64,000 nt of DNA, from contig NZ_CP150291.1 of NCBI RefSeq assembly GCF_038051985.1, positions 2,542,001-2,606,000 on the forward strand. The letters run 5' to 3'. This stretch comes from Solibacillus sp. FSL H8-0523 (GTDB taxonomy: Bacteria > Bacillota > Bacilli > Bacillales_A > Planococcaceae). Each line of letters opens with the position of its first letter. Position 1 is the first letter of the stretch. The notes beneath the pieces were generated by a model. That model saw only the letters and a program-made list of their open reading frames with translations. It was not told the DNA's origin and did no database searches. The position numbers and the translations under genes were made by a program. Below, in pieces: positions 2,941-57,514 of the stretch.

Positions 2941-2970
2941 ATTTGCTAAAATAAATATAGAGGTGAGGAA

Positions 2971-4200: not shown

Positions 4201-4202
4201 AT

Positions 4203-40339: not shown

Positions 40340-40350
40340 GACGGATTCGT

Positions 40351-41489: not shown

Positions 41490-41515
41490 CAGCATTTTTA
41501 TAATCCAATTACTTC

Positions 41516-41553
41516 GTCATCACTAGTGTATGTTCACAAGTGATGACTTTTTT
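41516..41553 (+). terminator. Terminator of the ABC/ECF operon
   Basis: GTCATCACT (41516-41524) pairs with AGTGATGAC (41539-41547), followed by a T run. Confidence 0.82.
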
Positions 41554-41699
41554 ATTCCTAAAATGTCATTTATAAATCGCACGCCAAACGCTCAATATGA
41601 TTGAAAATAATAAATACAATCCTACATTAGCGTTATGTATTTCATTAGCAAAGGCGTTACATACCGATTTGAATACATTATTTTGGGAGGTTGAGAACG

Positions 41700-42200
41700 A
41701 TGAAAAACCAAATCTTTAACCATTTCATTGGAGCAATTGATGCACGAGATGAATACCAACAACAGGAAATCTACAAGGAGCTTGCCTTTAGCGGGATTAT
41801 TCTTTATTACCTTTTGATGTTGCTTATGGGAACGAGCCTCATCATAGATCTTTTGCAGCAAACCTTTTCACTCATCACACCAATTTTACTTATTGTTACA
41901 ATTGGCTATTCCGGTTTTCTAATGAAGCGCCTTAACAAAAAGGAATTGATGGCAACAGATTGTGCAACGCCTGAAGAATATGAAATGAACGTGCATAGAT
42001 TGAAACGCTCATCTACGCTTGCAGGCATTAGCTGGGGATTAATGATGTTATTATGGATGGAATATTTAATGCCGCTCATCTCACGCGAGGAAATAAGCTT
42101 TTCATGGGCTGGCGTAATTAGCTGGGGTATCGGTGGTGTTCTTTTTGGCGTAGCGATGTATTTTATTGCGAAATCTAAACTAGAAAAGCATTATGAGTAA
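41700..42200 (+). CDS. DUF3278-like membrane protein
   Basis: A 166-residue protein with four membrane helices in two pairs (about 30-75 and 110-158) separated by a charged loop (KRLNKKELMATDCATPEEYEM). This resembles DUF3278 proteins of Firmicutes, of unknown function and often encoded beside Xre-type regulators. GGGAGG (41685-41690) is 9 nt before ATG 41700. No regulator is adjacent here. Confidence 0.65.
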   Translation: MKNQIFNHFIGAIDARDEYQQQEIYKELAFSGIILYYLLMLLMGTSLIIDLLQQTFSLITPILLIVTIGYSGFLMKRLNKKELMATDCATPEEYEMNVHRLKRSSTLAGISWGLMMLLWMEYLMPLISREEISFSWAGVISWGIGGVLFGVAMYFIAKSKLEKHYE

Positions 42201-42240
42201 TACGAGAAAGCTTAAATGAAACTACTAATTCCTAAATAGA

Positions 42241-42290
42241 AAACCCCGAACAGGCCCATTTTTAACTAGCCACTCGTCGGGGTTTCATTT
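42241..42290. terminator. Bidirectional terminator closing the eight-gene operon
   Basis: AAACCCCGA (42241-42249) pairs with TCGGGGTTT (42277-42285), with T-rich flanks on both sides. It separates the DUF3278-like gene from the convergent 15-kb operon. Confidence 0.75.
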
Positions 42291-42316
42291 TACCGTCTTC
42301 CTTACACATTCTCTAC

Positions 42317-43678
42317 TTAAGACAATTGGTAATCATATGAAAACTTATGTTGGATGACATCTTTTGATAACTGCTTTAATACAGAGCTAAAATCCTTTTC
42401 TTTTTGTTGTTGCAAATACGCCTCGATTGCTTGTAGTTGCTCGGCATCCGTTTTGACTGTCGCTACTTTTACACTCGGCATTTCTTCCACTTGTTTCGGC
42501 AGTTCAATGATCGGTTGCTCTAGTTCAGCACTTGGTTGTTGTTGGAACAGTTCTAACTGTTGCTTCAATTGCTCAATTTCGAGCGCTTGCTGCTCGGCCA
42601 GTTTTTCACCGTATTGTTTTTGCATTTGCAATAAATCTACATTTGCCAATGCCTCTTCATTTTGTGCCTTCAAATGCTGTACCTTTTCTAGTAATAACTG
42701 CTTTTCTTCTTGCTCAAATTGTAGCTCCCCTTTTAACTGTGCGAGTGATTCGTCAAACTGTAATTGTTGCTCCGTACTTTGTTCTAAAATGTGCAGGTAT
42801 TGCTGTTCAAACATTTGTTTTTGCTCTGTCATCTGTTCGAGTGCTTCAAGCTGCTCATCGCTTTCTGCTAACAGCTGCTCGTACTGTGACGTTGCTTGCT
42901 CTACTTGTTCTACTGTATTCTCGTGCTCTGTTTGTAGGATAGCCACTCGCTGTTCTAGTTGCGCATTGGCCTCTTGCTGCTGTTGCTGTACGTGTTGCGC
43001 GTCGTTTAAGTTGGTCTTTAATGCTTCTACACTAGACTGAAGCTCCTGTAGTTGTTCCTCGTATGCTTGTTTTTCATCATGGAAACGTACTGTTTGTTGC
43101 GCAAACTGCTCCATTTGCTGTTCGTTCTCGGCTAATTGTTGTTGGAGCTGTGTCGAAAATTGTTGCTGCTCTGTTAACAGTGCTGAGATTTGCTCAACTG
43201 ATTGCTGCTCTTTTGCAAGCTGTGCTTCTAGCGCTGTACAGTGCGTTTGCGATTGTTCGACTGTCGTTTCATGCAGGCTGATTTCCTGCTTTAGTTGAAT
43301 GATCCGTTGCTCTGCTTCTGCTTGCTGCTCTTTCACCTGCTGTTGCTCTAGTTGAAGCTTTTCATTTGTTGCGTTTAGAGAACGTAAGGCATTGCGCAGA
43401 TCGGTCAATTTTTGCTCGTTTCCCTGGTGAAGCTGTTGATGATGAAGCAGTTCCGTTTTTTTTCGCTTCAGCTCCGTTTGAAGTGTTTCTAGCTGGGCTG
43501 TCACCTGAGGATTTTGCTGAAGCTGTTCGTTTTCCGCTTTGACTTTTAATAAATTTCGATTTAAAAGATCCAGTGCCATTTGTAGCTGTGAAGAAAGCTT
43601 TGTTTGCTTTTCAAGCAGTAGTTTTTGTTGATCAAAATCTGCCTTTAGCTTTGCATAATCCATTATTTGTCCGTTCAT
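42317..43678 (-). CDS. Glutamine-rich coiled-coil protein (operon gene 8)
   Basis: A 453-residue protein that is almost entirely coiled coil (about residues 10-390), very rich in Gln, Glu and Leu (KQTKLSSQLQMALDLLNR; LEQRVAILQTEHENTVEQVE). A short C-terminal tail (about 400-453) may be globular (AIEAYLQQQKEKDFSSVLK). There is no enzyme motif, signal peptide or membrane helix. ATG 43678 has a perfect AAGGAGGTG site. It is the last gene of the operon, 12 nt after the HelD-like gene. It mirrors the first gene of the operon and could act as a scaffold or long tether. Low-complexity sequence makes homology searches unreliable. Confidence 0.75.
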   Translation of the reverse strand: MNGQIMDYAKLKADFDQQKLLLEKQTKLSSQLQMALDLLNRNLLKVKAENEQLQQNPQVTAQLETLQTELKRKKTELLHHQQLHQGNEQKLTDLRNALRSLNATNEKLQLEQQQVKEQQAEAEQRIIQLKQEISLHETTVEQSQTHCTALEAQLAKEQQSVEQISALLTEQQQFSTQLQQQLAENEQQMEQFAQQTVRFHDEKQAYEEQLQELQSSVEALKTNLNDAQHVQQQQQEANAQLEQRVAILQTEHENTVEQVEQATSQYEQLLAESDEQLEALEQMTEQKQMFEQQYLHILEQSTEQQLQFDESLAQLKGELQFEQEEKQLLLEKVQHLKAQNEEALANVDLLQMQKQYGEKLAEQQALEIEQLKQQLELFQQQPSAELEQPIIELPKQVEEMPSVKVATVKTDAEQLQAIEAYLQQQKEKDFSSVLKQLSKDVIQHKFSYDYQLS

Positions 43679-43690
43679 CAAGACACCTCC

Positions 43691-46537
43691 TTATGAAAAT
43701 ACATATAAGTTATGGAGCGCTCGACTGGCAGCCACATATTTTAACCTCGTATCGTATGGATCCTTTACTTCAAAGCGTGTACCACGGAAAATGATTACGG
43801 TATCAAATTCAAGCCCTTTCGCTAATACCGGTGTCGTAATAATCACTTGCGCGTTTGCCTGCTCGATGCCGATTTGTAAATGAATCGCCTCATTTTCTAG
43901 CTTCTCATGCAGATTCTTTGCTTCACGATTGGTCTTGGCAATAATGGCGATTTTACTATCTTTTGATTGCTCAGCAATGCATTGCCTCACTAAATCTGCA
44001 ATGCCTGGGTAAATCAGCATCCCTGGTTTCACAACCGTTTGTACTTTGTCGCCATTTCTAAATGTTAAAACAGGTAAATTGTATTTCCCTTCGCTAAACG
44101 GGCGAATAATATCATTACAGTAGGTCACGATTTGATTTGTTGAGCGATAGGTTGCCTTTAATTCATAATAGCTAAACGGTCCAATCGCTTGTTCAAAATC
44201 CGACCAACTACGAAGCTGACTGCTTGGTGTTAAATTTTGTCCTAAGTCACCCATTAGCATAATCTGCTCCGTTAATGCGTTAAATACGTCCATTTCAAAC
44301 GCGGTATAATCTTGCGCTTCGTCGACAATTAAATATTGGAATGGTTTTTCGTCGCTCGCTGTCAGCCACTGATGAATTACGAAAAGTGGTGCTAAATCAT
44401 GCTTTTCAATCTGTGTGTACGCTGCAAGTAAATCCTGATAATTCACTTGCAACTGTGCGTTATAGCCAAATTCATCGTGAATAATTTGCATATAAATATC
44501 ATCTACACAAAGATTATAATAGCGCTCAATTTGCGCAAACGCCTCTTCAAAATGTAGCGCTACCGCTGGGCGAGTCGCTTGATTTACGTTATAGTCAGAA
44601 AATGAAAGTTGTTGCCCTTCATAAGTAAGCGCGATGGCCTTCGCGTATTGTTGCGCCATTTGTTGCTTCACACATGTTTCCATGAATGATGTTAATTCTT
44701 TGCGATACGTTGTTTTTTCCATGAGCCATAGTTGATCAATATCTTGTATATATATCGTTTGCACATCCAGTAAATAGGCTTGGATCTCCTCAAATGAAAC
44801 AAAAGATTTGGCGTTAAATAAGGAGCTGATTTGCGCCCATTTAAATTGCTTTTCAAACAGCTCATTATATAGAAGTGCCTTTTCCGTAAGCTTTTTCGCT
44901 GTTTCTTCACGTACGACAAATAAGGGTGTAAGCGCTTCGATATCATGTTTACGCTTTTGTTCAATTGCTTGTTGCAGCTGCTTTTTTGCCTCTTTTAAAT
45001 TAAACTTTAAGGATTCTACTTTTTCAGATGCCGCTTTTTTTAGGCGCATTTCACGTTTTTCTTCATCCGTAATCAGCATTGCTTTTTTATAACTATTACT
45101 CTCTGAAATAGGACGATAATCCTCCTGTTTTAAAAATTTCATCTGCTGCTCAATGGTCAGTACCTTGGCACAGTACTGCTCAATTACATCATTTGTGAGG
45201 AGTAAGTGCTTCTGTTGTTGCAAATCGGTTAAAAAATGCGCGACTTCGTCCATAATGATTTTTTCTGTTGCATCAAAAATGGTCGCGGCTTCCTTCGCCT
45301 TGTCACGAATCGCTTGCTGTACGTAGTGCTTAAGTGCTTCCTTACTCTTCCCAAAATGGGGCTGCTGATGTACAAAATGAGCGATTTCTATAGCACTCAC
45401 ACTATACTTCCCTACCTGAATGGTATGCAAAAATGGGGCCAAATTACTTGTAATATATTTTGCGTATTGTTCAATATAGCGCTTGAATTCAAAGGAGCCT
45501 TTTAATTGACGCATTTCCGTATAATGCTCAAATGCTTGTAACGCTTGCGCCTTGCCTTCGTTTGCACTTAAATCATTGACTTCTGAAAAAATCATGCGAT
45601 CGATTTCTTCAATTGGGCGACGTAGTAACATGACTTGCTCTAAATAAAGCTTCAATGTCGTTTGTACAATATCTTTTTCGCCAAGCTCAGGCAATACATT
45701 TTCAACATGCTTTAAAAACAGGGGGTTAGGACCAAAAACCGCTAATTTTTTCGCCTGTAAATGCGGATGCTCATACAATAAATAGCTTAAACGATGCAGC
45801 GCGATAACGGATTTCCCACTTCCTGCTGAACCCTGTACAACAATGGCATTTTCGAGCGGTAGGCTAACAAGTTCGTATTGCTCCGCCTGTAACGTTTCCA
45901 CTAACGACTTCATTTCTGCGCCGCGCTTTTCTGCTAAGTTCTTCACGAGCAGTTCATCAATCGCTAGTTTTTCGGTTTGGAGCGGATGCAGTTCTTTTAA
46001 TTGCCCGCCCTCAATATCAATATTGCGGTAGCGCTCAAGCTCTACATCATAGCCATCAATCCGATACCGCTTCCCGAAGTTTTTCTCGTAATAGAGCTTG
46101 GCAATTGGGTTACGCCAGGAAATCGTTGCCGATGCAATGTCCTCATTTCCAATGTAAATCGTTTCCCCTAAACGCGCGTGATCTTTCACAAAATCGATAC
46201 GAGCAAAATAGGGATTATCCACTAATGCCGCCGCTTCCTTAATACGGCTATCGCCCATATGTAAAGCTAAATCATCTTCCTCGTAATAGCGGCGGATTCT
46301 TTTGCCACCGCCCGCATTTTCAAGGGCTATCGTTAAATTTGTTTTTATTCCTTCTACGGTTTTGTTTACACGGTCAAGCTCATACTTATAGGTAGCGGGT
46401 AAATAATTGGCTTTACATTTTTTATCCAGCTCTTTTCGAATTTGTTCCTCTAAGCCATCTACCGCTTCTTCTAACAATTCATCTTGGTACTCATTATGTT
46501 CTTCTATCATTAACTGCATTTGCTGTTTATGTTCCAC
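43691..46537 (-). CDS. HelD-like superfamily 1 helicase/ATPase (operon gene 7)
   Basis: A 948-residue SF1A protein. The helical N-terminus (1-60) resembles the HelD arm. Walker A is VVQGSAGSGKSVIALHRLS (about 232-250), followed by the HelD-type FGPNPLFLKHVENVLPELG. A long helical insert (about 330-640) comes next, then motif II VDEAQDYTAF (about 737), motif III MLMGDLGQNLTP, and motif VI YVAASRALHNLYVF at the end. HelD removes stalled RNA polymerase from DNA. This member is longer than the Bacillus protein (774 residues) and sits in an operon with McrB/DUF2357 genes, so it may act on invading nucleic acid or transcription complexes. GTG 46537 follows AGGAAGTG. Confidence 0.82.
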   Translation of the reverse strand: MEHKQQMQLMIEEHNEYQDELLEEAVDGLEEQIRKELDKKCKANYLPATYKYELDRVNKTVEGIKTNLTIALENAGGGKRIRRYYEEDDLALHMGDSRIKEAAALVDNPYFARIDFVKDHARLGETIYIGNEDIASATISWRNPIAKLYYEKNFGKRYRIDGYDVELERYRNIDIEGGQLKELHPLQTEKLAIDELLVKNLAEKRGAEMKSLVETLQAEQYELVSLPLENAIVVQGSAGSGKSVIALHRLSYLLYEHPHLQAKKLAVFGPNPLFLKHVENVLPELGEKDIVQTTLKLYLEQVMLLRRPIEEIDRMIFSEVNDLSANEGKAQALQAFEHYTEMRQLKGSFEFKRYIEQYAKYITSNLAPFLHTIQVGKYSVSAIEIAHFVHQQPHFGKSKEALKHYVQQAIRDKAKEAATIFDATEKIIMDEVAHFLTDLQQQKHLLLTNDVIEQYCAKVLTIEQQMKFLKQEDYRPISESNSYKKAMLITDEEKREMRLKKAASEKVESLKFNLKEAKKQLQQAIEQKRKHDIEALTPLFVVREETAKKLTEKALLYNELFEKQFKWAQISSLFNAKSFVSFEEIQAYLLDVQTIYIQDIDQLWLMEKTTYRKELTSFMETCVKQQMAQQYAKAIALTYEGQQLSFSDYNVNQATRPAVALHFEEAFAQIERYYNLCVDDIYMQIIHDEFGYNAQLQVNYQDLLAAYTQIEKHDLAPLFVIHQWLTASDEKPFQYLIVDEAQDYTAFEMDVFNALTEQIMLMGDLGQNLTPSSQLRSWSDFEQAIGPFSYYELKATYRSTNQIVTYCNDIIRPFSEGKYNLPVLTFRNGDKVQTVVKPGMLIYPGIADLVRQCIAEQSKDSKIAIIAKTNREAKNLHEKLENEAIHLQIGIEQANAQVIITTPVLAKGLEFDTVIIFRGTRFEVKDPYDTRLKYVAASRALHNLYVFS

Positions 46538-46548
46538 GCGATCACTTC

Positions 46549-47217
46549 CTATATTTTCACTTTACTTTTCTCTTCCCTTACTAAAACAACGGTTGCAGGC
46601 TTTGCACACGGATGATTTTTCAGAGTAGGATGCACAGTATAAAGCAAACGACACATTTCACTCCATTTTGCATAAGGAACACCCGATTGTTGAATAATGT
46701 TGTCCATAAAATCACTAAACTGTAAGGGTCCCCATTGCTGTTCGAAAACACGCAGATGACCTGTTTGAATGGCCCCTTGCAGCTTTGGCTTATATTCTGC
46801 TAATAAGACAGACCCAATAAATTCGGTTGCCCCTGCTTCACCAAAGCCGATTTCATCATTCTTGTAATACTGATGAATGAGCGCAGACAGCTCGTTCGTT
46901 GAAAATTGTTGCATAAAATCAGGTAAATCAGTTGCAGGTGCGGGTAAAGAGATGCGCTTACCTTCAAGCTTTATTTGCTGAACAGGTTGCCTAATAGCTT
47001 GTTCGTAGCTTTTATTGGCCTTGTGCTTTACATAGAAAATGTAACCGACAATTGCTGAAAGTATTAAAAATAAAATAGCCCCCATTGCAGAACTCGTAAA
47101 AATTGTTAACACCGTTTGAAAAGCCCATGTACTAATTGAAAAAATTGTATTTAAAATAAAGCGAATAATCAGTAGGGCAATAATCGTCAGCCCTACCCAC
47201 TTTAGTATATGATTCAT
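46549..47217 (-). CDS. Two-pass membrane protein of unknown family (operon gene 6)
   Basis: A 222-residue protein with two N-terminal membrane helices (about 7-27 and 40-62, including AILFLILSAIVGYIFYV) and a cytoplasmic domain of about 150 residues. That domain has FMQQFSTNELSALIHQYYKND and GEAGATEFIGSVLLAEYKPKL, and ends in a basic tail. No family is recognised. Its ATG overlaps the stop of the DUF2357 gene (ATGA), so it is made together with it. It could anchor the complex at the membrane or form the effector. Confidence 0.72.
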   Translation of the reverse strand: MNHILKWVGLTIIALLIIRFILNTIFSISTWAFQTVLTIFTSSAMGAILFLILSAIVGYIFYVKHKANKSYEQAIRQPVQQIKLEGKRISLPAPATDLPDFMQQFSTNELSALIHQYYKNDEIGFGEAGATEFIGSVLLAEYKPKLQGAIQTGHLRVFEQQWGPLQFSDFMDNIIQQSGVPYAKWSEMCRLLYTVHPTLKNHPCAKPATVVLVREEKSKVKI

Positions 47218-49358
47218 GGTGACACCTCTAGATTGCACGTTGTACGCTGCATCGCATCACAGCGTTTACAGATTCGATGTGCTTTTGATTGTTGCTGGCA
47301 ATCGCCACAGTTAGCACAGACGGTAAAAAAACTTGTCCCTAAATGGGCATTTTCACATAAGTTGTTTAACCCCATTGTTGCATTGATGTTTTCCTTTTCA
47401 AACAGCCAATTCACATCTGATTTTGTTTGCGCTGCTAGTTGTTGCTCTTCCGTTAAGTAAACATCGTCCTTCATACTTTTCTTTTGCATTTTATACAAAG
47501 GTGCACCGCATTTACATGTACGTGTGCCCCACTCACAGCGACAGAGTGGATTCCCACAAACATATTCGCCTTCATTTGTTTCGTGCCCATCTGCGCCGCA
47601 CATAAAGCAAAAGGATTGGACGCCTATTTTATAAAGCTGTAAACGAATGAAGCGCTTAAACAGTTGCTTATTAAAATCCGCTGTACTATAAGGAAATACC
47701 CCATATTTCATCGCACCAAATGCCTGAAACTTCTCAGCAGATATAAAATTCGTACCCAGCGTCATGACTAAATGTAGCTTTTCATAAGGCATTGACTTGA
47801 AGTAATCATCCTTTGTTTTTGCTGGGTAAACGACCATAACAGTTGGCATTTGTACGTTTGTTATGAGCTCTTTTCGCTTATTTTTATTTTCGATGAAAAC
47901 GGATTGTTCCGTATAGGTATAGAGCGCTTCAATTTGCGCCTCTGTTACATATTTATGCAATTGAAAAAGGGTCGGTAAAAAGCGGCTCACTTCGACTTTC
48001 TTTGTCTGTTCATGCTGTACAGTAAAAGTGATTTTTTGTCCACTTCTTTCGATCGTGAGCTTCACGCCAAACTGGGCATGATGCAGAGAAAACGTGACCG
48101 CCTCTTTTGAAAAAATATAAGCATTTAGTTCTTCGCCAAGCTTTAATGTCAATGGCCCATCGTGTACAAAACCTTCTTGCTGGAGCTGATGGAGCATTGT
48201 AAATAATACTTCGTCTGCATAGTACGTCTGGTAATCAATGCTATCATTTAGTTTAAAGGTTTTATCCATCATGGCGCGCATATAGTGATTGTAAAAACGA
48301 TACAGCGTGCCGTAATCTTTGTTGTAAAGAAGCACTTGGTTTGGCACAACATAGCCCTGAATAAACTTTAAACCGCGAAACGTTTTAATTGTTTTACGAA
48401 CTAAATTATATAGGCCTGTCAGCTGACTGAGTGCTTGCGAGAAGAGTTCTTCATATTCAAGTAATTGCATGCTTTCTAGTTCTGCATCGAAACGCAAAAT
48501 ATCTAACTCAATTTTTAACTCATTACTAGCAAGTTTGGTTTGAATCGTTAATACATTATCTTTCAGCTCTTTTATGACTTTGCGCATCTCACGCTCCAAC
48601 TGATCAGCAAACGTATAAATAAAGCGATTTTCATAAATATCAATCGATTCCTCATGTACTTCCTTTAATAACTGCTGCGGAACGGGACGCGCCATGGTCG
48701 ACTTCGCCCACGTTGTTGTATCCTTCATAAAATGCTGAATCGTACGTGGTGTAATCACATCAAGCTCCGCTGCATTGACCAGCATTTCTTCAGTCGTTAG
48801 CTTCACTTTCGGCTTACGTAAAATTTGCTGTAAGTGTAAGGTAATTTCTTTACGAAACACATAAAACCAAATAGCATCCGGGTCATCTATTTTTAAGCGG
48901 TCTTGTAGTTGCTTGAATGAGACCTGCCAATCCTCATCACTATAAAACTCCGCCAGTTCAATTTCGGATTCATCGTAGACGTCCACATAGTCTTGTACCT
49001 TTTGCTGCCACAATAAATATTGGTCACGCAGCTGCTCCAAATAACCGGCACTTGGTAATAGTGCTGGGTCCACAGTGATGTGAAATAACGCTTCATGCGC
49101 TTCTTCTTCAATCGTATAGTGAACGGTTACCGTCAGTAAAGGCTTCGTTGGCATTAATGTAAAGTCAAAATGTGCCACAGGCTGTAAAAATGTATGGAGC
49201 AGGTCATCATTGACATAAACCTTTTCCGGCTTCACTTGCGGCAAAAATTGTAGCTGAAATAACGTACGATAAATGTGCGGCAATTCGGTCCCTTCATACG
49301 GGGCAAATTCATTATCGAGCCAGCTATCTTTCATTCGTAAAATGACATTACTTGGCAT
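47214..49358 (-). CDS. DUF2357/McrC-like protein with zinc-ribbon tail (operon gene 5)
   Basis: A 714-residue protein. The N-terminal half matches the DUF2357 region that replaces the McrC N-terminus in many McrBC relatives. The key block is ESIDIYENRFIYTFADQLE at about 238-256, a variant of the PENRF motif. In the usual nuclease position I do not find a clear PD-(D/E)xK core; only VMVVYPAKTKDD is reminiscent. The C-terminus (583-714) has 14 cysteines in CxxC-type pairs (CFMCG; YVCGNPLCRC; CKCG; VCANCGDC; ICKRC), which suggests two or more zinc ribbons. It overlaps the McrB-like gene by 11 nt, the standard coupling of McrB and McrC. Confidence 0.75.
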   Translation of the reverse strand: MPSNVILRMKDSWLDNEFAPYEGTELPHIYRTLFQLQFLPQVKPEKVYVNDDLLHTFLQPVAHFDFTLMPTKPLLTVTVHYTIEEEAHEALFHITVDPALLPSAGYLEQLRDQYLLWQQKVQDYVDVYDESEIELAEFYSDEDWQVSFKQLQDRLKIDDPDAIWFYVFRKEITLHLQQILRKPKVKLTTEEMLVNAAELDVITPRTIQHFMKDTTTWAKSTMARPVPQQLLKEVHEESIDIYENRFIYTFADQLEREMRKVIKELKDNVLTIQTKLASNELKIELDILRFDAELESMQLLEYEELFSQALSQLTGLYNLVRKTIKTFRGLKFIQGYVVPNQVLLYNKDYGTLYRFYNHYMRAMMDKTFKLNDSIDYQTYYADEVLFTMLHQLQQEGFVHDGPLTLKLGEELNAYIFSKEAVTFSLHHAQFGVKLTIERSGQKITFTVQHEQTKKVEVSRFLPTLFQLHKYVTEAQIEALYTYTEQSVFIENKNKRKELITNVQMPTVMVVYPAKTKDDYFKSMPYEKLHLVMTLGTNFISAEKFQAFGAMKYGVFPYSTADFNKQLFKRFIRLQLYKIGVQSFCFMCGADGHETNEGEYVCGNPLCRCEWGTRTCKCGAPLYKMQKKSMKDDVYLTEEQQLAAQTKSDVNWLFEKENINATMGLNNLCENAHLGTSFFTVCANCGDCQQQSKAHRICKRCDAMQRTTCNLEVSP

Positions 49359-51324
49359 TACGCTTCACCTTCTCTATCGCGCGGATAGTGGATGATGTGG
49401 CGCCTACTTTTTGTGCTTCTGCTAAGCGAATAATAGCATCCATCGCGAGTTCAAATTCCTCGTCATAACTTGGCATAATTTTCGGGACAATTTTTGAAAC
49501 GATTTGTAAATCAATCGCCTCTTTCACATTCCAATTATTCGCCGCATAGGTTTGCATAAACGTACGCATATGACGACGCGGACGATTCCCAATTTCTAAA
49601 TACAGTTGTTCGCTTAAAATTTGAAGCACTTCCTGAAGTGGGCGGCTTTGTTGGGTAACATCTACTTTTTGAATCGTAGCCATCGCCGCTTTAAAGTCGC
49701 TAAAGCTGACACTTGGCATCGCTTCAATGCGCTCCATATCCCCCACTTTATTGCTAAGTGCTGCTTGGAAATCAAGCACTTGGGCGCGGTCATAAATTTT
49801 GTCACTTAATGTATACGTTGACTCATCTTCGTTGATTGTCCCAATGAAAAATACGTTTGGCGGAATACGCAGTTTATTGCCATCAATAATATAATCTGCT
49901 AAATCTCCTGACGTACGTCCAATCGTGTCGAATAGTTCAACGACTTGCTTGGATTGCTCTAACTCTAGCTTCGAGTTAAAGTCAGAGAAATAATATTCCA
50001 CACGCGCTAAGTTCATTTCATCAAGCACAATGAAGTAGAATTTATCGCGGTTCTCAGGTAACTGTGCTTTAAATAGCTCCTCTGTAAATTGAGTGGCCAT
50101 GAAGCGATCGTTGAAATGATTATAAAATCCAATTAAATCTGTTTTGCTTTTCCAGTTTGGCTGAACCGCAATCGTTTCGCAAATACCGCCTAATGCGTGC
50201 GCTACAATTTTCGGTAAACTTGTTTTCCCTGTTCCTGATAAACCTTTTAAAATAATAAAACGTGTACTACGCATTGCAGCTAAGAAGCCATGAATCATAG
50301 CCGATGAAAATTCATAATTCCCTTGTGTTGCCGCATGTAAAATACGCTCTACTGCCTGGCCATCACCTGGATACTTCGTTAAATTCGAAGCTGTTTTGGC
50401 GCTCTTTTCAATTAGTACTTGGAAGCTTTCAAACATTCGACTTTCGTCTGCAATTGCATCTTTTTCTTTCTTTTGTAAACGTTGAAGTTCTGCTTCTAAG
50501 CTACGTAAACGAATTTCATAAAATGCGCTCTTATGCTCCGCCGTCGTGACGCGCTCTGCTTGTTCGCGGTAAAGCTCCGCTTGCTCACGCGTTCGAGCAA
50601 GCTCACTTTGCAGCGTTTTGTTTTGCCCCTCTACTGCATACATGCGCGTACTCATTGCTTCGTAATCCTCTTTTAATTGCTCGATGCGTGCCCATTCGAC
50701 TTCGGATTGGCGGTAAATGCGTACCATTTCATCGCGGCGCTCGAGCTCTGTTTTCAGTAGGGTATTTTCAGATTCTAGCTGTGCTGTATGATCGATCCGA
50801 TTTTGAAGCTGTGATTTTTCTTCCTGCAAACGTCTCGTTAGCGCAACAATACTTTCATAAGAAGCTTTGACACGCGTTAGCTCGGCTTGAGTTGTTATCG
50901 CATCAGCTAATGAAAAATCCTGCTTAAGCTTTTGAAATTGTACGCGCTCTTGCTCAATTTCCTCTTGCACCGCTAATAGTTCCTCACGCTCTTCGTCTAA
51001 CGCCTGTAGCTTTTGTTTAAAGCCTTGCTGTTCCTTTAACAGTTTTTGCTCTGCCACCGCTCGTTGCTTTTCGAGCTCGCGCTTTTGCTTCGTATGCTCG
51101 GCGTTGCTATCTTTTAGCTTCACTTTTTCAATCACTAACGTTTCCTTTACATCCGCCAATTGATTCGTTAGTTTTTCAATCTTAACTTCTAGTTCAATTT
51201 TCGAATTACGCAGTGTTTCTAATTGCTGTTCTTTCACTTCATACTTTCCAAAGAGCAGCGCAAATTCATCTTCTAAAAATTGAATTTTTTCTGCTTGTGC
51301 TCCTTCTAGCTGCTTAACTTCCAA
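49348..51324 (-). CDS. Coiled-coil McrB-like AAA+ NTPase (operon gene 4)
   Basis: A 658-residue protein. Residues 1-310 form a long coiled coil (EVKQLEGAQAEKIQFLEDEF; EREELLAVQEEIEQERVQFQ). The AAA+ domain has Walker A GLSGTGKTSLPKIVAHALG (about 360), TDLIGFYNHFND, Walker B FIVLDEMNLARVEYYFSDF (about 433) and sensor 1 FFIGTINEDESTYTLSDKIYDRA (about 488). The last two are hallmarks of the McrB/MoxR-like clade. It would assemble into a hexamer and drive the DUF2357 partner. Whether it uses GTP, as McrB does, or ATP cannot be read. The TTG start abuts the stop of the preceding gene and its GGAGGG lies in that gene's last codons. Confidence 0.85.
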   Translation of the reverse strand: MEVKQLEGAQAEKIQFLEDEFALLFGKYEVKEQQLETLRNSKIELEVKIEKLTNQLADVKETLVIEKVKLKDSNAEHTKQKRELEKQRAVAEQKLLKEQQGFKQKLQALDEEREELLAVQEEIEQERVQFQKLKQDFSLADAITTQAELTRVKASYESIVALTRRLQEEKSQLQNRIDHTAQLESENTLLKTELERRDEMVRIYRQSEVEWARIEQLKEDYEAMSTRMYAVEGQNKTLQSELARTREQAELYREQAERVTTAEHKSAFYEIRLRSLEAELQRLQKKEKDAIADESRMFESFQVLIEKSAKTASNLTKYPGDGQAVERILHAATQGNYEFSSAMIHGFLAAMRSTRFIILKGLSGTGKTSLPKIVAHALGGICETIAVQPNWKSKTDLIGFYNHFNDRFMATQFTEELFKAQLPENRDKFYFIVLDEMNLARVEYYFSDFNSKLELEQSKQVVELFDTIGRTSGDLADYIIDGNKLRIPPNVFFIGTINEDESTYTLSDKIYDRAQVLDFQAALSNKVGDMERIEAMPSVSFSDFKAAMATIQKVDVTQQSRPLQEVLQILSEQLYLEIGNRPRRHMRTFMQTYAANNWNVKEAIDLQIVSKIVPKIMPSYDEEFELAMDAIIRLAEAQKVGATSSTIRAIEKVKRNAK

Positions 51325-52812
51325 TTATTTTCCCTCCAAAAATTGAATGATTGCATAGGCTTGCTGCTTTGTTTTTTGTAATAGCTCATAATAAGCGCTA
51401 GGCGACATTTGGAATAGTGTTTCATCATGATGGCTACCTGTTTTATTGCGAAGCTCTACAAGCTGCTCATACATCGGCAACACATGCGCCTGTTCTATCA
51501 AGCGTTTTTGCCATTGTCTCTGCTCTAGTTCATCTGCTAATAGCAACAAGGCCATAAAATCACGGTTGCCGTACACATGCAGCGATTGTCCTTGCTCGAG
51601 CTTTATCATTTGCTGCGCAATTTTTTTCATATTACGTAAAATAGCTGCCGGTAACGTATGTCCCATACTATAAACGATTGTTTCGATGACTTTATCTAAT
51701 GTTTTTTGCTCATACGCTTGCTTCCAGTGACGCGGTGCTTGTAATGTACGCTTTGTCTCTATTAGCTCCTGCATGACGGCTTCAATGGCTAAGTTGTAAT
51801 TATTAATATACGCTGCTCGCAGTGCGGGGTTGTGACGTTCACCTTGTTCAGCTTCAATGAGCACTTTTTCACCAAGCTGTAAGTATTCAAGGACCGCTTG
51901 TGAGACGGTTGTGCCTTGTAAGCCAGCCTCCACTCGGTCCAAAATCGAAACTTGGCCAATAGACCCCATCATTTCTTGCTCTAAACTTGCCTGATTGGTT
52001 TCAATAAGCCACTCAATCGCCAGCTTGCCTTGGTCTTGGTTTTCAATAATGGAATAAAGTAGTGCCGATTTTTCATTTGTAAATGGAGAGATCGCAATTG
52101 CTGGCGTGTATGTACCTTGTTCATCGTAAAAGAGCTGCTCCAATTTTAAACGAATCGGTAAATACGCTCTTTTCGTAAAGGCAAAGCTTTTCTTTTCAGC
52201 ACGGATTTCCTTGGTGATGGCGTTTTCTACAGGTACTTCTTCAATGACCGCGCCGTCTTCAAAAAACTTCTTTTTAATTTCATTATAGTTATAGACAGCC
52301 CGCTTCATTTGCTCATCACATTTAACATCTTCGTAGTAGGCTTTCGTGCACTCTGTATTGCCGTCAATCTGTAAATCCAGTGTTTGCTCATAAGAAAAGA
52401 GCAATTCGTCCTCATGTACATATTCAAAAAATTGGCCACGTACTTCATCGAAAAACATGACGCCTTCTTTATATTCATAACTTGTGCTGTCAACTTCCTT
52501 ATCCTTCGCTTCAAAGTAATCATGTTGCTTCACGATTAAATTTTTCAATAATAAATCATCCATTTCTGCTGCCAGAATACTTTTCCAAGCAGGTGGCAAT
52601 TGCAGTTTTGTCATCAGCTCGTCAATACGATATTGCTTTATTTTACACAGCTTCAGTATGGTTTCACTAATAATCGACAACTGCTGCTGTTCCACGCTCC
52701 AGTACTTTACTGGAACAACCGTTACCGGATAATATACGTATAAACTATCAGTCGTTTTGGCCTGTCTATTTTTTTTACTAGAGAAGCTCAATTCTACGAT
52801 GTTCGTCAACAT
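51325..52812 (-). CDS. Candidate HEPN-type effector with winged-helix-like region (operon gene 3)
   Basis: About 495 residues, mostly helical, of no family I recognise. Residues about 45-95 (LCKIKQYRIDELMTKLQL, MDDLLLKNLIVK) look like a winged helix. The C-terminal helical bundle contains VELRNKTGSHHDE, i.e. R455-N-x4-H461, which fits the RX4-6H active-site motif of HEPN ribonucleases, with a polar residue after Arg as usual. HEPN RNases are common toxic effectors in prokaryotic immunity. ATG 52812 has GAGGAG 7 nt upstream. The gene overlaps the end of the helicase gene by 35 nt. The HEPN assignment is a motif-level inference. Confidence 0.6.
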   Translation of the reverse strand: MLTNIVELSFSSKKNRQAKTTDSLYVYYPVTVVPVKYWSVEQQQLSIISETILKLCKIKQYRIDELMTKLQLPPAWKSILAAEMDDLLLKNLIVKQHDYFEAKDKEVDSTSYEYKEGVMFFDEVRGQFFEYVHEDELLFSYEQTLDLQIDGNTECTKAYYEDVKCDEQMKRAVYNYNEIKKKFFEDGAVIEEVPVENAITKEIRAEKKSFAFTKRAYLPIRLKLEQLFYDEQGTYTPAIAISPFTNEKSALLYSIIENQDQGKLAIEWLIETNQASLEQEMMGSIGQVSILDRVEAGLQGTTVSQAVLEYLQLGEKVLIEAEQGERHNPALRAAYINNYNLAIEAVMQELIETKRTLQAPRHWKQAYEQKTLDKVIETIVYSMGHTLPAAILRNMKKIAQQMIKLEQGQSLHVYGNRDFMALLLLADELEQRQWQKRLIEQAHVLPMYEQLVELRNKTGSHHDETLFQMSPSAYYELLQKTKQQAYAIIQFLEGK

Positions 52813-55800
52813 AACCACACTCCTCTATATATTCATATACGTCATTAAACATTTTCGATTTGCGTAACGTTTTCACATCGCCCACAACAATTAATAACGA
52901 TCTCGCACGCGAAATGGCCACATTTAATCGATTAGGGGAACGTAAAAAACCTAAAGCACGACTTTCTTGTTTAAAGTCGTTACTGCGCACCGTTGATAAA
53001 ATAACAATGTCACTTTCCTTCCCTTGAAACGCATCCACTGTGCCAACAGCGACTTGCTTTTCTAAGCCGTGATTTTGCAATTGCTTTTTCAAGTAGTTTA
53101 GCTGCTCCGCATAAAACGTAATGATACTAATGTTGCCAATATTTTTTGCGTCTTTCACAAGCTGTTTTACAAGCTTAATAACGGCCTTTGCCTCTGCTTC
53201 ATTCACATAACGACGGGATTCACCACCTGCTTCAAACGGTACATTTACCCAAGCTAAATGGTAACCATCATAAACGCCGCTCGTATTTGCTAGAGCATCT
53301 TCAGGTAAGCCGTGCTGTAACCCTTCTGGATAAAATAAACGGCTCACTAATCGTCCAATCTGTGGATGCATACGGAATTGCTTTCTTAGCATCACTTTCT
53401 TCGATGCCGGTAACTCTTTATACAGGCGTTCAAACAAACTTTGACTATAAATGACATCAAATTGTTCCGCATCCATTTCTAGTTGCTGCTCAAAGTCTGG
53501 CTCTAAAATATGAGGCAACTGCTTATGATCCCCTACTAAAATCACTTTCTTACCAAGCGTCATCGGAATTAATAAATCAAGCGGATTCGCGCGTGCCGCC
53601 TCATCAACAATGACCGCATCAAAAATGGCGTCGTACATGCCGTGGCGTTTTGCTACGGTTTGCTGACAAGTTGCGCCCTTTACTTGCGCATAACGCCCGA
53701 TTACTTCTGCAAGCTGCAGCGGATTTGCTGAAATCTCCATTGCATATTGCTTTAAAATTTCTTGCTCTTCGCTAAGAGTAATTTGCTTTGACTGTTGCTT
53801 TAACGCTTGTAATTCAACAATACTTCGACGTAGCGCTTCTTGCACAATATGGTCATCCGTTACCAGTACGGTTGTTTGGATTTGTTCTGTACATAGCTTG
53901 CATAGCGCTGTAATCGTTTGCTCAAGTTGCTCGGCTAACGCTTCATTATTTTTTAGAAGTACCATTTTACGGCGTACATTTTTTAGTTGCTCTAAAAGCG
54001 GCTCCATTGTCATTTTCATTTGCTCACTAAACGCCACTTTGGCCTCTCTATAAAAAGCATGCCATGCTTCTACATCCGCCGATGTTTTGACTGCGCCGTT
54101 TTTAGGTAACGTTTCGTACATGGCACTATAGGGCGAAGCTTGCGGCTCGTTTACCGTAAGAGGGAGTGCCATCGTTAAATCTAGTAAAATCAAAAAGACA
54201 TCGGTTGGAATGTCTGCATCTGCCTTTAAGCGCTCTACATATTGCGTAATTTGCTGCACTGTCTGTTCATGTAATGGCTGAGATTCAAACTGTTGTAGGT
54301 CCAGCAACAGCTGCTCGATATACGTTTGTTCTTGATCTTCATAACTTGTGACATTTAAAATCGGTGTGGCCATTTTTTTCGTAATGTCTTGATACGTCGC
54401 AAGCAATTGTTGCTGATACGTTTCCCCGCCATAACGGTGTGATAACATGCCGTGCTCTGTTAAGCCTTGCATGGCGTTATCTACGGCTAAATGTTGGTAC
54501 GATGTAATTAAAATTTCAGACTGCTTTAGCTCAATTAAACACTTCATAATCGTTTGAATAACAGATGTTTTACCCGTGCCAGGTGGTCCTTGAATGAGTA
54601 CTAAATCATTGGTATTAAGTGCGGCTTTGATCGCATTCTCTTGCGGGATATCCGGCATTTTGCCATTTACTAGCGTACTCACACTATGTAGTGGAAATGA
54701 ATATTTCATCGATTCAATATTTAAAACACTTGCAGGGTTACTTAAATAATCCGCTAAATTTGGTAATACGGCCGTACGCGCTAATGTTTTCTCAAGCGCT
54801 TTTTTTCGGCGACGTTGCGCAACTTCCTCTAGTTGATTACTTACTTTAAGTACACCTGACGGATCAAAGGGCTTTTCCTCATACAAATCATCAAATGAAA
54901 AATCAATTTCTGCGTTGCGCCCATTAAGCAGTCGCAGTAGCCCAATTCGATAAGGACTATTTCGTACTTCTGTTTGAACCGTCACTTGCCCGACATGCTG
55001 TTGCCATTGCTCAAGCGCTTGCCCAGTGGCTAGTTCAAAAATGACTTTACCGTATGAAATTTTATAGGATACATAGCGTAATGGCTGACAACTCGCCACA
55101 ATGTCATTCATTTTTTGCTGTTCAAAAGCCATATACGCATTCCACTCATTTAAATAGCTTTTCTCACTTTCAAAATAGAGTGGAAACGGCTTTTCAACTG
55201 TAACGTTTGCCTCTTGATAGGCTTGTGTTGAATCAAAAAACTGGACATTCGTTAAAAAAAACTTAGCCTGCAATAGCAGCCCCATTTTTTCAGCTTCTTT
55301 ATAAGCAATCTTTTCTTCTTTAAGCGCGTATAGCTGGTCTTCCTCCCAATTTAAAATCAGCGTATTTGCCCGGCCATTTTCTTTGGCACTAAATAAGTAA
55401 AAATGCTGGGTCTTCGGGTGTTGCGCAACATAGGCGTACATCCCTGCATCTGCAAATGGATTGTCCCCTTGTAAATAGTGTTCCTTTTGAATGGGCTTGT
55501 CTATTTTTGATAAATTAATGGCAATCGATGCGCGGTCGATTATTTTTTGCGTCGGACGTGCAATCGTAACGGCAATATTTTGCCCATTTACATCTTCTAC
55601 CCACGCATAATAGTCTACATCTAATTGCAGTAAATGGTTTACGACATTTATTTCTTGACGATTTAATACGTTACCAATAGCCTTTAGACCTTGCATAGCA
55701 ACAAACATGTCTTTTCTATGCTCAAATGTTACGCGTTCCCCTATATTTAAGTCAGACGCGATGACTTCTGCATACAATGTAACAGTTTGCAAATCTCCAT

Positions 55801-55819
55801 TGCCTTTTACTCGATACAT
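52778..55819 (-). CDS. Upf1-like superfamily 1 helicase (operon gene 2)
   Basis: A 1013-residue SF1B-type helicase. The N-terminal 380 residues are a mixed domain with beta segments and no obvious known motif. Walker A VLIQGPPGTGKTSVIQTIM is at about 410. A long insertion with coiled coil (about 460-700) follows, then motif II AVIVDEAARANPLDLL (about 737), motif III VILVGDHKQLPH (about 763), motif IV-like KQFRMHPQIGRLVSRLFYP, motif V GTVDAFQGKESDIVILSTVRS (about 930) and motif VI RLNVAISRARSLLIVVGD (about 970). Upf1-like helicases act on RNA or single-stranded DNA and occur in several defence systems. It lies 12 nt after gene 1. Confidence 0.87.
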   Translation of the reverse strand: MYRVKGNGDLQTVTLYAEVIASDLNIGERVTFEHRKDMFVAMQGLKAIGNVLNRQEINVVNHLLQLDVDYYAWVEDVNGQNIAVTIARPTQKIIDRASIAINLSKIDKPIQKEHYLQGDNPFADAGMYAYVAQHPKTQHFYLFSAKENGRANTLILNWEEDQLYALKEEKIAYKEAEKMGLLLQAKFFLTNVQFFDSTQAYQEANVTVEKPFPLYFESEKSYLNEWNAYMAFEQQKMNDIVASCQPLRYVSYKISYGKVIFELATGQALEQWQQHVGQVTVQTEVRNSPYRIGLLRLLNGRNAEIDFSFDDLYEEKPFDPSGVLKVSNQLEEVAQRRRKKALEKTLARTAVLPNLADYLSNPASVLNIESMKYSFPLHSVSTLVNGKMPDIPQENAIKAALNTNDLVLIQGPPGTGKTSVIQTIMKCLIELKQSEILITSYQHLAVDNAMQGLTEHGMLSHRYGGETYQQQLLATYQDITKKMATPILNVTSYEDQEQTYIEQLLLDLQQFESQPLHEQTVQQITQYVERLKADADIPTDVFLILLDLTMALPLTVNEPQASPYSAMYETLPKNGAVKTSADVEAWHAFYREAKVAFSEQMKMTMEPLLEQLKNVRRKMVLLKNNEALAEQLEQTITALCKLCTEQIQTTVLVTDDHIVQEALRRSIVELQALKQQSKQITLSEEQEILKQYAMEISANPLQLAEVIGRYAQVKGATCQQTVAKRHGMYDAIFDAVIVDEAARANPLDLLIPMTLGKKVILVGDHKQLPHILEPDFEQQLEMDAEQFDVIYSQSLFERLYKELPASKKVMLRKQFRMHPQIGRLVSRLFYPEGLQHGLPEDALANTSGVYDGYHLAWVNVPFEAGGESRRYVNEAEAKAVIKLVKQLVKDAKNIGNISIITFYAEQLNYLKKQLQNHGLEKQVAVGTVDAFQGKESDIVILSTVRSNDFKQESRALGFLRSPNRLNVAISRARSLLIVVGDVKTLRKSKMFNDVYEYIEECGYVDEHRRIELL

Positions 55820-55831
55820 ACGATCCCTACT

Positions 55832-57301
55832 TTATTGATTATTTAAGAGCTCTAAATATTGTTGTACTACCTTTTCATTATTTTTGCGGAAGTACTCTAA
55901 TCTATGTTCTGTGTCTGCTAGCTTTTTCTCTAGTGCAACGATTTCCTCGTTACGCCCCTCGGTTGCTGTTGGTTGTGCTGTTTGTTGCCTACGCTGGGTC
56001 ATTAGCTCATTGATATGCGCCTTGAGCTTGGCTGTATCCGTATCGTATTTCTCTTTTAAACGCTCAAATGCTTGTTGTACGTCGCCATTTGCACCCGACC
56101 CGGAAAGTTCTCCCTCCAGTATCGCAACCTTTTGCTGAAGCGCCTGTATAGTTGCATCCTTCGCCTCAAGCTGCTCTTTTTCTAGCTGTTCAAATTGTTC
56201 CTGTAGCGTGTTGTTTTTTATTTGAAGCGCCGTCATTTGTACTTGCAAGGTTTCTCTCTGCTGTTCAAGCTGTACTACCATTTCTTGTAACGCTTCTGCT
56301 GATTGTAAATCAACTGTTTCCGACGTTGCTTTCTGACCAAACATTTTCATATTTTGCTTTGTTGCATGAAGTAGCTTGTCGCCCACTGACGATAAAATGT
56401 TCGTCACATCTGCCCGACTATGTTGCGCGCTTTCCATCTGCTCCGTTAACTGCTTATTAAGTGCGATTTGTTGGTGTAATTCATGCGCTGCTTGTTTCTT
56501 TGCCTCCGTTAGCGCTTCATTTTGCGCTTGTAACTCTTTCATTTCCGTCTGCTGTTGCAGCACCGTGCTTTGTTGTTGCGCTGCATTTTGCTCAAGCGAC
56601 TGCGTAACTGCTAGCGCTTGCATTAAACGGTGCTGGCTATCGGCAAGCGCTTCTTGTAACGCTTGCTCCTGTTGTTGCAATAGATCTTGGTCTTTTAGGA
56701 GTTGCTCAAATTTACTTCGCAACGTTACATTTATCTCTGCCAGTTGGTTTAGGTCATTTTTCTGCGCTACGCTCATTTGTTCAAGTGACCGTAGTGTTTC
56801 ATTTGCTAAAATAGATGCCAACTGCGATTGCTCTAGTTCTTGCTGTAACGTTTCATGCTGTTGTACAAGGTGGTCCATTTGCACTTTATAGCCTTGCTCT
56901 ATTTCCTTGACTTGCGCAGCAATTTTTTCCTCTATTCGACGATGCGCAGTTAAAAAATAATCTGGATATTTTTTTGGGAAATGATTGTGTAAAAGTTCCG
57001 CGACAGTAAATTGAAATTCTGCACAGGACTGCGCGATTTCTATGTAGGCCGTTTTCATATTTTGTATATTTTCAATGGTCGCGATTTTTGTCACATCCAC
57101 CTCAAACTGAGTTGTTAAAACAGGTTGGAGTGTTTGCTTCCATTGTAATTGCTGTTCCATTAGTTCAGCTGAAAATTGCGGATTTTTCATTTCATCGATG
57201 AGTTGCTCATATAAAGCTGTATAAAAGGAAGCAACAAATGATTCAAATATTTCAATGACATACGGTTGCATCATTTGCTGTTCTTGTAATTGATTGTTCA
57301 T
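55832..57301 (-). CDS. Glutamine-rich coiled-coil protein (operon gene 1)
   Basis: 489 residues. The N-terminal 125 residues appear globular and helical (VIEIFESFVASFYTALYEQL; VAELLHNHFPKKYPDYFL). The remaining 360 form a near-continuous glutamine-rich coiled coil (LEQQRETLQVQMTALQIK), with a KATSE-type break near 300 and a tail LEYFRKNNEKVVQQYLELL. No enzyme motif. GAGGGA precedes ATG 57301. It is the first gene of the 15-kb operon. Together with gene 8 and the N-terminus of gene 4, it makes three long coiled coils in one operon. Confidence 0.75.
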   Translation of the reverse strand: MNNQLQEQQMMQPYVIEIFESFVASFYTALYEQLIDEMKNPQFSAELMEQQLQWKQTLQPVLTTQFEVDVTKIATIENIQNMKTAYIEIAQSCAEFQFTVAELLHNHFPKKYPDYFLTAHRRIEEKIAAQVKEIEQGYKVQMDHLVQQHETLQQELEQSQLASILANETLRSLEQMSVAQKNDLNQLAEINVTLRSKFEQLLKDQDLLQQQEQALQEALADSQHRLMQALAVTQSLEQNAAQQQSTVLQQQTEMKELQAQNEALTEAKKQAAHELHQQIALNKQLTEQMESAQHSRADVTNILSSVGDKLLHATKQNMKMFGQKATSETVDLQSAEALQEMVVQLEQQRETLQVQMTALQIKNNTLQEQFEQLEKEQLEAKDATIQALQQKVAILEGELSGSGANGDVQQAFERLKEKYDTDTAKLKAHINELMTQRRQQTAQPTATEGRNEEIVALEKKLADTEHRLEYFRKNNEKVVQQYLELLNNQ

Positions 57302-57345
57302 TTCATCCCTCGCTCGTAGATATATTAGACTATCTATTCTTTATT

Positions 57346-57351
57346 ATTATA
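57346..57351 (-). promoter_or_regulatory. -10 box candidate of the eight-gene operon
   Basis: A perfect TATAAT lies on the minus strand about 45 bp upstream of gene 1. The best -35 match, TTGGCA at 57377-57372, is 20 bp away, which is too long, so an activator or another sigma factor may be needed. The spacer 57302-57460 holds no other gene. Confidence 0.4.
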
Positions 57352-57460
57352 CACCAATATTCTCTTAAAATTGCCAATGCACACTACATTCTAGAAAATC
57401 TGTTTGTTATTGTTTGCGCTATTTGAAATATAAACTATTTTAAATTTATAGAAAATAAAA

Positions 57461-57511
57461 AAACGGTATATGAAAAATCACCCTTTAAAGTGACGCTTTC
57501 ACATACCGTTT
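57461..57511 (-). terminator. Terminator of the MarR/MFS operon
   Basis: AAACGGTATATGAAA (57461-57475) pairs with TTTCACATACCGTTT (57497-57511) with one imperfect position. An inner ATCACCCTTT/AAAGTGA hairpin and a T run on the minus strand are also present. Confidence 0.8.
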
Positions 57512-57514
57512 GAT

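Follow-up and report, generated by a model that had tools for sequence, protein, structure and literature searches.

CoCoNuTs are predicted RNA-cutting antiviral systems known from sequence (Bell et al. 2024, PMC11090510; this and the other papers are cited for the parts of them covered here). In their Type II, the genes follow the order CnuH-CnuE-CnuB-CnuC with short gaps or overlaps; CnuE is described as an elongated wHTH protein with one HEPN domain, and CnuC as joining an Ig-like N-domain to an inactivated PD-(D/E)xK fold. A TerY-P triad is common in Type II without being termed core, and a few Terrabacterial systems lack it (PMC11090510). A 2025 preprint, partly by the same authors, extends the CoCoNuTs by a fourth group, formed by Druantia I and II (PMC12458937). 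In the CoCoNuT literature covered, we found no experimental test of a Type II system. Here we analyze an eight-gene operon (g8 to g1 in order of transcription) of Solibacillus sp. FSL H8-0523, carried on a stretch of 64,000 nucleotides (RefSeq assembly GCF_038051985.1, contig NZ_CP150291.1, positions 2,542,001 to 2,606,000), which as a whole is called the window. By motif, profile, and gene order, the identification of g7 to g4 as a Type II-like CoCoNuT core (CnuH, CnuE, CnuB, and CnuC) is well supported. What appears new, within the literature covered, is the joining of such a core to a HelD-like motor, g2, and the HelD-like clade to which this motor belongs is the more interesting part of the finding.

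Gene content and layout of the operon

The open reading frame (ORF) list of the window places eight co-directional, tightly packed ORFs on the minus strand at 42317-57301 (~15 kb), with intergenic distances, from g8 to g1, of 12, -41, 0, -11, -25, 11, and 9 nt. Lengths are given in amino acids (aa), and SF1 stands for superfamily 1.

g8, 55832..57301, minus strand: 489-aa Q/E/L-rich coiled-coil protein, first gene; CnuA-like by position and make-up only
g7, 52778..55819, minus strand: 1013-aa UPF1-like SF1 helicase (putative CnuH)
g6, 51325..52818, minus strand: 497-aa CnuE-like effector with a C-terminal HEPN motif, RNKTGSH
g5, 49348..51324, minus strand: 658-aa coiled-coil McrB-like GTPase (putative CnuB) with an NxD motif (NED)
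g4, 47214..49358, minus strand: 714-aa DUF2357 protein (CnuC/McrC-like) with C-terminal cysteine pairs (zinc ribbons) and no recognizable PD-(D/E)xK
g3, 46549..47217, minus strand (GTG ORF 46549-47238, 229 aa): two-pass membrane protein with a soluble tail of ~150 aa
g2, 43691..46537, minus strand: 948-aa HelD-like SF1 motor of a separate clade, with an enlarged clamp-arm region
g1, 42317..43681, minus strand: 454-aa Q-rich coiled-coil protein, last gene
Terminator-like hairpin and U-run 3' of g1, about 42238..42286 (counted by hand), minus strand: from folding against shuffles
Stretch absent from sister genome G001, 42221..57512, no strand: from flank comparison; 511 bp with a HIT-family gene stand there instead

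We take the frames to be real genes because homologues of the genes occur in other genomes; those of g4 to g7 in other genera are 28 to 66% identical, and those of g8 are recognized by their N terminus only. The start of g3 is probably the ATG at 47217 rather than the GTG, since this ATG overlaps the g4 stop as ATGA and the relative P0011 begins at that residue. G+C content is even along the operon (38.8-41.9% per gene, g3 lowest). Across both strands of 41500-58000, terminator-like sites are fewer than expected by chance (12, against a shuffle mean of 15.8). The hairpin directly after g1 has a z score of -2.2, with 5 of 200 shuffles folding equally well, and was not picked up by the pattern scan for terminators over the same region. 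A preliminary description of this DNA, made from the letters alone, had reported eight one-strand genes that overlap or lie 0-12 nt apart and have no internal terminator, and the coordinates and terminator counts agree with it. Throughout, coiled-coil-like runs were called by composition, as helical stretches free of Pro and Gly and rich in E, K, Q, and L.

A Type II-like CoCoNuT core

As Type II references we used five plasmid systems, typed by the order in which their genes are annotated (VWA, PP2C, kinase, helicase, unnamed, AAA, DUF2357) after the description in PMC11090510; some of their genes are annotated only as "hypothetical," and one system has an arrangement close to this one. Against the five CnuH proteins, g7 aligned over residues 189-986 at an E value of 5e-104 (hhalign). 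It also matches the Pfam families AAA_11 (1.8e-30) and AAA_12 (1.4e-51), and its Walker A and B motifs lie ~320 residues apart. Residues 1-188, the N-terminal part, did not align with the references; the N terminus of Type II CnuH is described as carrying SmpB-like and RNase-toxin-like domains (PMC11090510).

The putative effector g6 was compared with the five Type II CnuE proteins as an alignment with three close relatives and matched them over nearly the full length (probability 97.3, E = 1.9e-11). When the CnuE of a divergent CoCoNuT in another Solibacillus genome (L014, in genome G006) was added, the match reached a probability of 98.9 and an E value of 3.9e-17. As L014 is itself a TerY-P-bearing system, the comparison was repeated without it and was weaker yet held; mismatched controls scored probabilities of 0.05 and 0.07%. 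All six aligned proteins, the CnuE of a Nostoc plasmid among them, keep residues R457, N458, and H463 of g6, with the spacing one residue shorter in L014. Among the five plasmid CnuE proteins the His column is invariant, and the Arg and Asn columns are not listed as invariant. Motif and profile match together point to a HEPN-like protein.

For g5, the evidence is a PADLOC match to PDC-M26A (4.5e-54) and an alignment that recovers the Walker A and DEMN motifs of McrB, with NED (NxD) replacing the NxxD (NTAD) of Escherichia coli McrB. All 15 GTPases aligned with E. coli McrB have the NxD form. The first ~230 residues of g5 are poor in Pro and Gly and rich in E, K, Q, and L, with coiled-coil-like runs at 27-100 and 102-232, and heptad power at this N terminus is significant in a few windows only. 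Its partner, g4, scores 40 bits against DUF2357 (PF09823; cut-off, 23.3; 3.5e-10). It aligned with the five Type II CnuC proteins at E = 1.8e-19 in columns 172-362 only, which is the DUF2357 region, and its C-terminal cysteine pairs are in part common with theirs. The Pfam scan gave no PD-(D/E)xK (PDDEXK) match in g4; in contrast, the McrC of a second locus, L064 (see below), matches PDDEXK_7 at 8.8e-9.

The core shares with Type II CoCoNuTs, as described in PMC11090510, the gene order with its short gaps or overlaps, an NxD GTPase with an N-terminal coiled coil, a CnuE with a single HEPN motif, and a CnuC with DUF2357 and cysteine pairs and no recognizable active nuclease. It differs in the unalignable 188-aa N terminus of CnuH and in what surrounds it: no TerY-P lies beside the operon, a further coiled-coil gene precedes the core at the 5' end, and a membrane protein, a HelD-like motor, and another coiled coil follow it.

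The leading gene, g8, has Pro/Gly-free helical runs at 138-306 and 323-396, and its conserved part is the N-terminal ~115 aa: residues 7-120 are 47% identical to a Caryophanon latum gene in the same place, a score reached by none of 60 block shuffles. Type III-B CoCoNuTs have a separate coiled-coil CnuA (PMC11090510), and a Rhizobium plasmid locus that we assigned to Type III-B by gene content only (L066) likewise has a separate gene in the CnuA position within the operon. In L066 this gene stands between CnuH and CnuB, whereas the coiled coils of the window stand at the operon ends; the window also differs from Type III-B in having a HEPN CnuE and in lacking a CnuD (Hsp70) match, the Pfam scan having found none in any of the eight proteins.

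The family assignments of the preliminary description survive these comparisons. Those of a DUF2357 protein, a UPF1-like helicase, and a HelD-like helicase accord with profile matches, and that of g5 as McrB accords with the motif alignment and PADLOC, though its Pfam AAA_5 score falls under the cut-off of that family. The HEPN-like character of g6 is borne out by motif and profile match, not by Pfam or PDB, and the two-pass membrane protein by two hydrophobic spans. The likeness to CoCoNuTs proposed there stands for the core (NxD, the coiled-coil CnuB, DUF2357, and the CnuE, CnuH, and CnuC profiles) but not for all eight genes as a unit.

Three add-on genes and a HelD-like clade

HelD recycles stalled RNA polymerase, which the Bacillus subtilis protein enters with two arms; in class II HelD the acidic tip sits on another insertion (Newing et al. 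2020, PMC7749167). With HelD as described there, g2 shares SF1 1A and 2A domains, Walker A and B motifs, and a split 1A domain, as well as the segment around the conserved Trp between the arm and the 1A domain (W137 in B. subtilis, W141 in g2), this Trp being invariant in all 13 aligned rows. It matches the structure of B. subtilis HelD (PDB 6wvk) at 7.8e-51 and the HelD_BACSU equivalog model at 6.6e-69. The score against that model, 232.6 bits, is under the cut-off of 419. Walker A lies at residue 235 and the Walker B motif DEAQD at 739, 504 aa apart, and the clamp arm is estimated at about 420 aa, against 247 aa in B. subtilis (PMC7749167). Besides falling below the equivalog cut-off, g2 differs from HelD in belonging to a separate clade and in that the Asp pair of the acidic tip is not seen, in a region that aligns poorly; for this last reason its contact with RNA polymerase is uncertain, and a role at the polymerase is possible. 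Ordinary HelD-type genes are present elsewhere in the window genome. Among the eight proteins, g2 alone has PHROGs matches, as a DNA helicase and as PhoH-like.

A tree built from 43 cores places g2 in a fully supported clade of 27 rows (100/100) on a long stem. Outside this clade fall four UvrD-type rows and 12 HelD rows, of which three come from the genus. A 34-row tree, whose motif pattern had dropped 9 of the 43 rows, seven of them ordinary HelD, agrees. Most members are longer than g2: 18 of the 27 measure 1152-1412 aa, eight including g2 measure 948-972 aa, and one measures 862 aa. P0020, of 1412 aa, is sister of the short branch. By composition, 10 of the 17 listed proteins P0020-P0036 have long coiled-coil-like runs, with no such run in P0020 or in the HelD-like proteins of L064 and L065; the heptad-power test is too blunt for most of these fused N termini.

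At E <= 1e-45, three of 261 genomes of the order have close g2 matches: that of the window and two others of its family, G166 and G243. In G166, locus L064 (7937-16646) holds a HelD-like gene; 337 bp beyond it begins a row of three genes, one of 346 aa that has a coiled-coil-like run, an NxD McrB, and an McrC with a nuclease match. Together the four may be a HelD-McrBC system without CnuH or CnuE. L064 resembles the window in bringing a member of the HelD-like clade, a coiled-coil-like gene, an NxD McrB, and an McrC together on one strand within ~9 kb. It differs in that its HelD-like protein is ~300 aa longer N-terminally, its McrB has no long coiled-coil-like run, its McrC keeps the PD-(D/E)xK match, no CnuH or CnuE match is present, and 337 bp follow the HelD-like ORF. 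In G243 (L065, 9560-19714), the HelD-like gene is part of a small defense cluster; next to it are a partial match to PDC-S26, GajB, GajA, and a KwaB-like gene. Thus both other clade members with readable surroundings stand beside defense genes, McrBC in one case, though two are few.

On either side of g2 stand g3 and g1. The hydrophobic peaks of g3, at 11-29 and 52-70 of the 229-aa ORF, mark two membrane spans. A protein search found its homologues only in the window species and, at 80% identity, in Solibacillus sp. FSL W8-0372; a search of the genus gave only weak matches outside the window genome, the best at 0.0015 with stops. The last gene, g1, has a coiled-coil-like run at 88-317, and its N terminus resembles the coiled-coil gene after CnuC in L014 (37% over 76 aa, E = 4e-8; none of 60 shuffles as good), so that a coiled coil follows CnuC in two divergent loci. 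No similarity was detectable between g1 and g8 (28 of 60 shuffles as good) or between g1 or g8 and the N terminus of P0020 (13 and 21 of 60 shuffles, respectively, as good). As shuffles score as well, we do not claim a common origin of the coiled coils of g1, g8, and P0020; that g1 and g2, which directly follow each other, are a split form of a fused coiled coil-motor gene is only a suggestion, g1 having no similarity to the P0020 N terminus.

The preliminary description had counted neither the HelD-like enzyme nor the membrane protein among the parts familiar from the CoCoNuT group. For HelD this stands: in the main text of the CoCoNuT paper (PMC11090510) there is no mention of HelD, UvrD, or RNA polymerase, nor is HelD mentioned in the covered parts of the YprA preprint (PMC12458937). 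For the membrane protein it does not, as the former paper reports membrane-spanning parts in genes related to CoCoNuTs or neighboring them (an FtsB-like fusion in CoCoPALM, ShdA, and a four-span protein), which makes g3 less novel than had been thought. Within the literature searched, apart from the HelD structure paper, we found nothing tying HelD to phage defense and nothing on PDC-M26.

Distribution and a variable locus

The core is rare. With the window genome included, g4 is matched at E <= 1e-3 in 2 of 16 genomes of the genus, 4 of 200 of the family, and 5 of 261 of the order, one of the five, G006, holding the divergent system L014. A protein search in which the best 8000 candidates were scored gave nine g4 relatives, own species included. 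In the genus, only G000 and G006 match g7 beyond a helicase frame of 1253-1288 aa that is present in all 16 genomes. The core recurs in three named genera, in Caryophanon latum (L009), Kurthia huakuii (L010), and Lysinibacillus sp. B2A1 (L011); the NCBI family of the first two is Caryophanaceae. The leading gene g8 has matches in L009 and L011, in the latter over 24 residues; L010 is uninformative on g8 because its contig begins 194 bases before g7. The L009 contig ends 335 bp after g4, and the order-wide g2 search, which covered this genome and scored three candidates per genome in the rows listed, gave no close match there.

Among more distant or partial relatives, Solibacillus sp. FSL W8-0372 has g2 at 83% along with its g3, and Lysinibacillus sp. 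38-6, a strain that the named g4 relatives do not include, has a g2 relative at 45%. In the plasmid collection, g2 had one partial match and P0020 and g6 had none. The genome-contig scan gave no relative with g4 alone and two with the g5 alignment, and the viral-contig scans gave no match. Class-wide searches covered 398 genomes each; as the rows listed score no more than one or two candidates for each genome, their negatives are weak. In them the sole g4 match outside the window genome was a short frame with a stop in G386 (5.5e-4, not counted), the g2 alignment (A4) matched its own genome only, and the L064 HelD-like protein had no match.

Several of these loci have features of their own. 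L014 (103-17706), in the same genus as the window, runs PP2C, kinase, CnuH, CnuE, CnuB, CnuC, and coiled coil, with a phage-type integrase gene further on. In L009, a Cas3-like gene with HD and helicase domains (1636-4356) lies ~5 kb before the C. latum core. In L011 (2438-6633), g7 and g8 are each broken into two frames, short ones in the case of g8, and an ISL3-type transposase gene lies downstream of the core; the broken frames may equally reflect a decaying copy or assembly errors. A g4 relative at 47% identity, P0005, is labeled Yersinia enterocolitica in a third-party assembly, a contig that is likely misassigned, since the other named g4 relatives are all Caryophanaceae.

The site of the operon varies between close relatives. 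Sister genome G001 matches the window up to 42220 and again from 57513, with 511 bp and a 133-aa HIT-family gene between, and in G002 a HIT-family gene stands beside the same transporter. Because the operon replaces, or was replaced by, this small HIT gene, the locus is accessory rather than fixed, and the neighborhood check suggested by the preliminary description for a variable locus thus came out in favor of one. Four sister loci (L056-L059) lack the operon genes at E <= 1e-5; two of the four match the left-flank DNA, a match that in L056 stops at 38805. Within the window, 38883-42220 (an ABC transporter, an ECF-type sigma factor, and small genes) has matching DNA in L057 but none in L056. 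As L056 holds other small genes between the flanks, the locus varies beyond the operon itself. The flanking genes are transport, regulatory, and metabolic genes, and a scan of 15 flanking ORFs revealed no recognized defense gene.

Proposed mechanism and alternative explanations

The explanation that we favor, with appreciable room for doubt, is that g7 to g4 form a CoCoNuT core of a Caryophanaceae (Planococcaceae) lineage that lacks TerY-P, is led by its own coiled-coil gene g8, and in the window lineage is extended by a coupled add-on of g3, g2, and g1. We infer a defense role for the operon. In the proposed mechanism, coiled coils would tie CnuB, CnuC, g8, and g1 into one assembly, in which the CnuB GTPase, stimulated by CnuC, would sense the target or move on it. 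The UPF1-like CnuH would engage RNA and pass it to the HEPN RNase CnuE, whose cutting of viral or host RNA would stop the infection. The HelD-like motor g2 would engage RNA polymerase and make transcripts accessible, release them, or free the template for the complex, and g3, as a guess from its two spans, would hold the assembly at the membrane. The sensor, helicase, RNase, and scaffold roles are extrapolated from what is known of the families.

Several observations weigh against this explanation. The full set of eight genes was found in no genome examined outside the window species, so that of the co-occurrence expected by the preliminary description only the recurrence of the core held. Both L010 and L011 carry the core with no g1-g3 match, and Solibacillus sp. 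FSL W8-0372 is absent among the nine g4 relatives, although a broken or very short g4 would escape. Only one further HelD-McrBC neighborhood, L064, came to light, and its McrB falls on the Type I/III side of the GTPase tree. In that 16-row tree the window group of four (81/99) stands apart from the Type I/III rows, and its join to the Type II rows is left undecided, for which reason we term the core Type II-like. No kinase, PP2C, or VWA (TerY-P) match was found among the flanking ORFs scanned, and neither g6 nor the g6 alignment has a HEPN match in Pfam or PDB. Finally, the acidic tip of B. subtilis HelD, D56/D57, aligns to non-acidic residues of g2; the alignment is poor there, however, and the exact pair is missing from some ordinary HelD rows too.

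Some of these points lend themselves to a reading in which g8-g4, a Type II-like CoCoNuT, and g3-g1, an independent system of membrane protein, HelD-like motor, and coiled coil, are neighboring defense systems that share one transcript and act apart. The two parts do occur separately, the core without g1-g3 in L010 and L011, g2 and g3 in FSL W8-0372 with no g4 relative among the matches listed, and the g2 relative of Lysinibacillus sp. 38-6 in a strain outside the named g4 relatives, and in L065 the HelD-like gene stands beside Gabija and KwaB. Yet g4 and g3 overlap as ATGA, G+C content is similar across the genes even if lowest in g3, a g1-like coiled coil follows CnuC in the divergent CoCoNuT L014, and in L064 McrBC has a HelD-like gene shortly upstream. 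We regard independent action as a possible but rather unlikely arrangement. A host function seems less likely still, and in our view improbable: the operon would then serve stress-linked RNA turnover or the clearing of transcription complexes, with the HEPN protein as a regulated RNase. Such a function would suit the part that HelD proteins play in recycling stalled RNA polymerase (PMC7749167), the stress role proposed by the CoCoNuT authors for Pseudo-Type I-B (PMC11090510), and flanks free of recognized defense genes. It fits poorly with the rarity and patchy distribution of the operon, with the different gene that can occupy its site, with the ordinary HelD-type genes that the genome has besides, and with the defense or mobile surroundings of relatives in L009, L014, and L065. 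A fixed housekeeping locus is rejected by the empty site in the sister genome.

Mokosh, a system made of an MkoA helicase and an MkoB partner, was also considered. The PADLOC models for MkoA and MkoB match g7 (5e-116) and g6 (3e-5), respectively. The MkoB match covers only 71 residues of g6 (25-95), whereas g6 aligns with Type II CnuE nearly end to end, and the operon includes McrB and McrC genes with the NxD and DUF2357 marks. Mokosh was set aside on these grounds as very improbable, and the MkoA score presumably reflects the common UPF1-like helicase family.

Implications

One tentative view, to which we give considerably less credence than to the operon model itself, sees the separate HelD-like clade, whose members often carry a coiled-coil extension at the N terminus, as a form of the RNA polymerase recycling motor adapted to defense. 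It would team with McrBC/CoCoNuT systems and so couple an RNA- or DNA-cutting immune complex directly to the transcribing polymerase. In the window lineage, coiled coil and motor would then be separate genes (g1 and g2), and g3 would tie the complex to the membrane.

A chromosomal Type II-like system of a Bacillales relative, with its HEPN motif kept, is a good test subject. If it is true that the HelD-like clade works with McrBC-type systems, bacterial immunity would be linked to the clearance of stalled RNA polymerase, and this link may hint at how an RNA-targeting system recognizes foreign transcripts.

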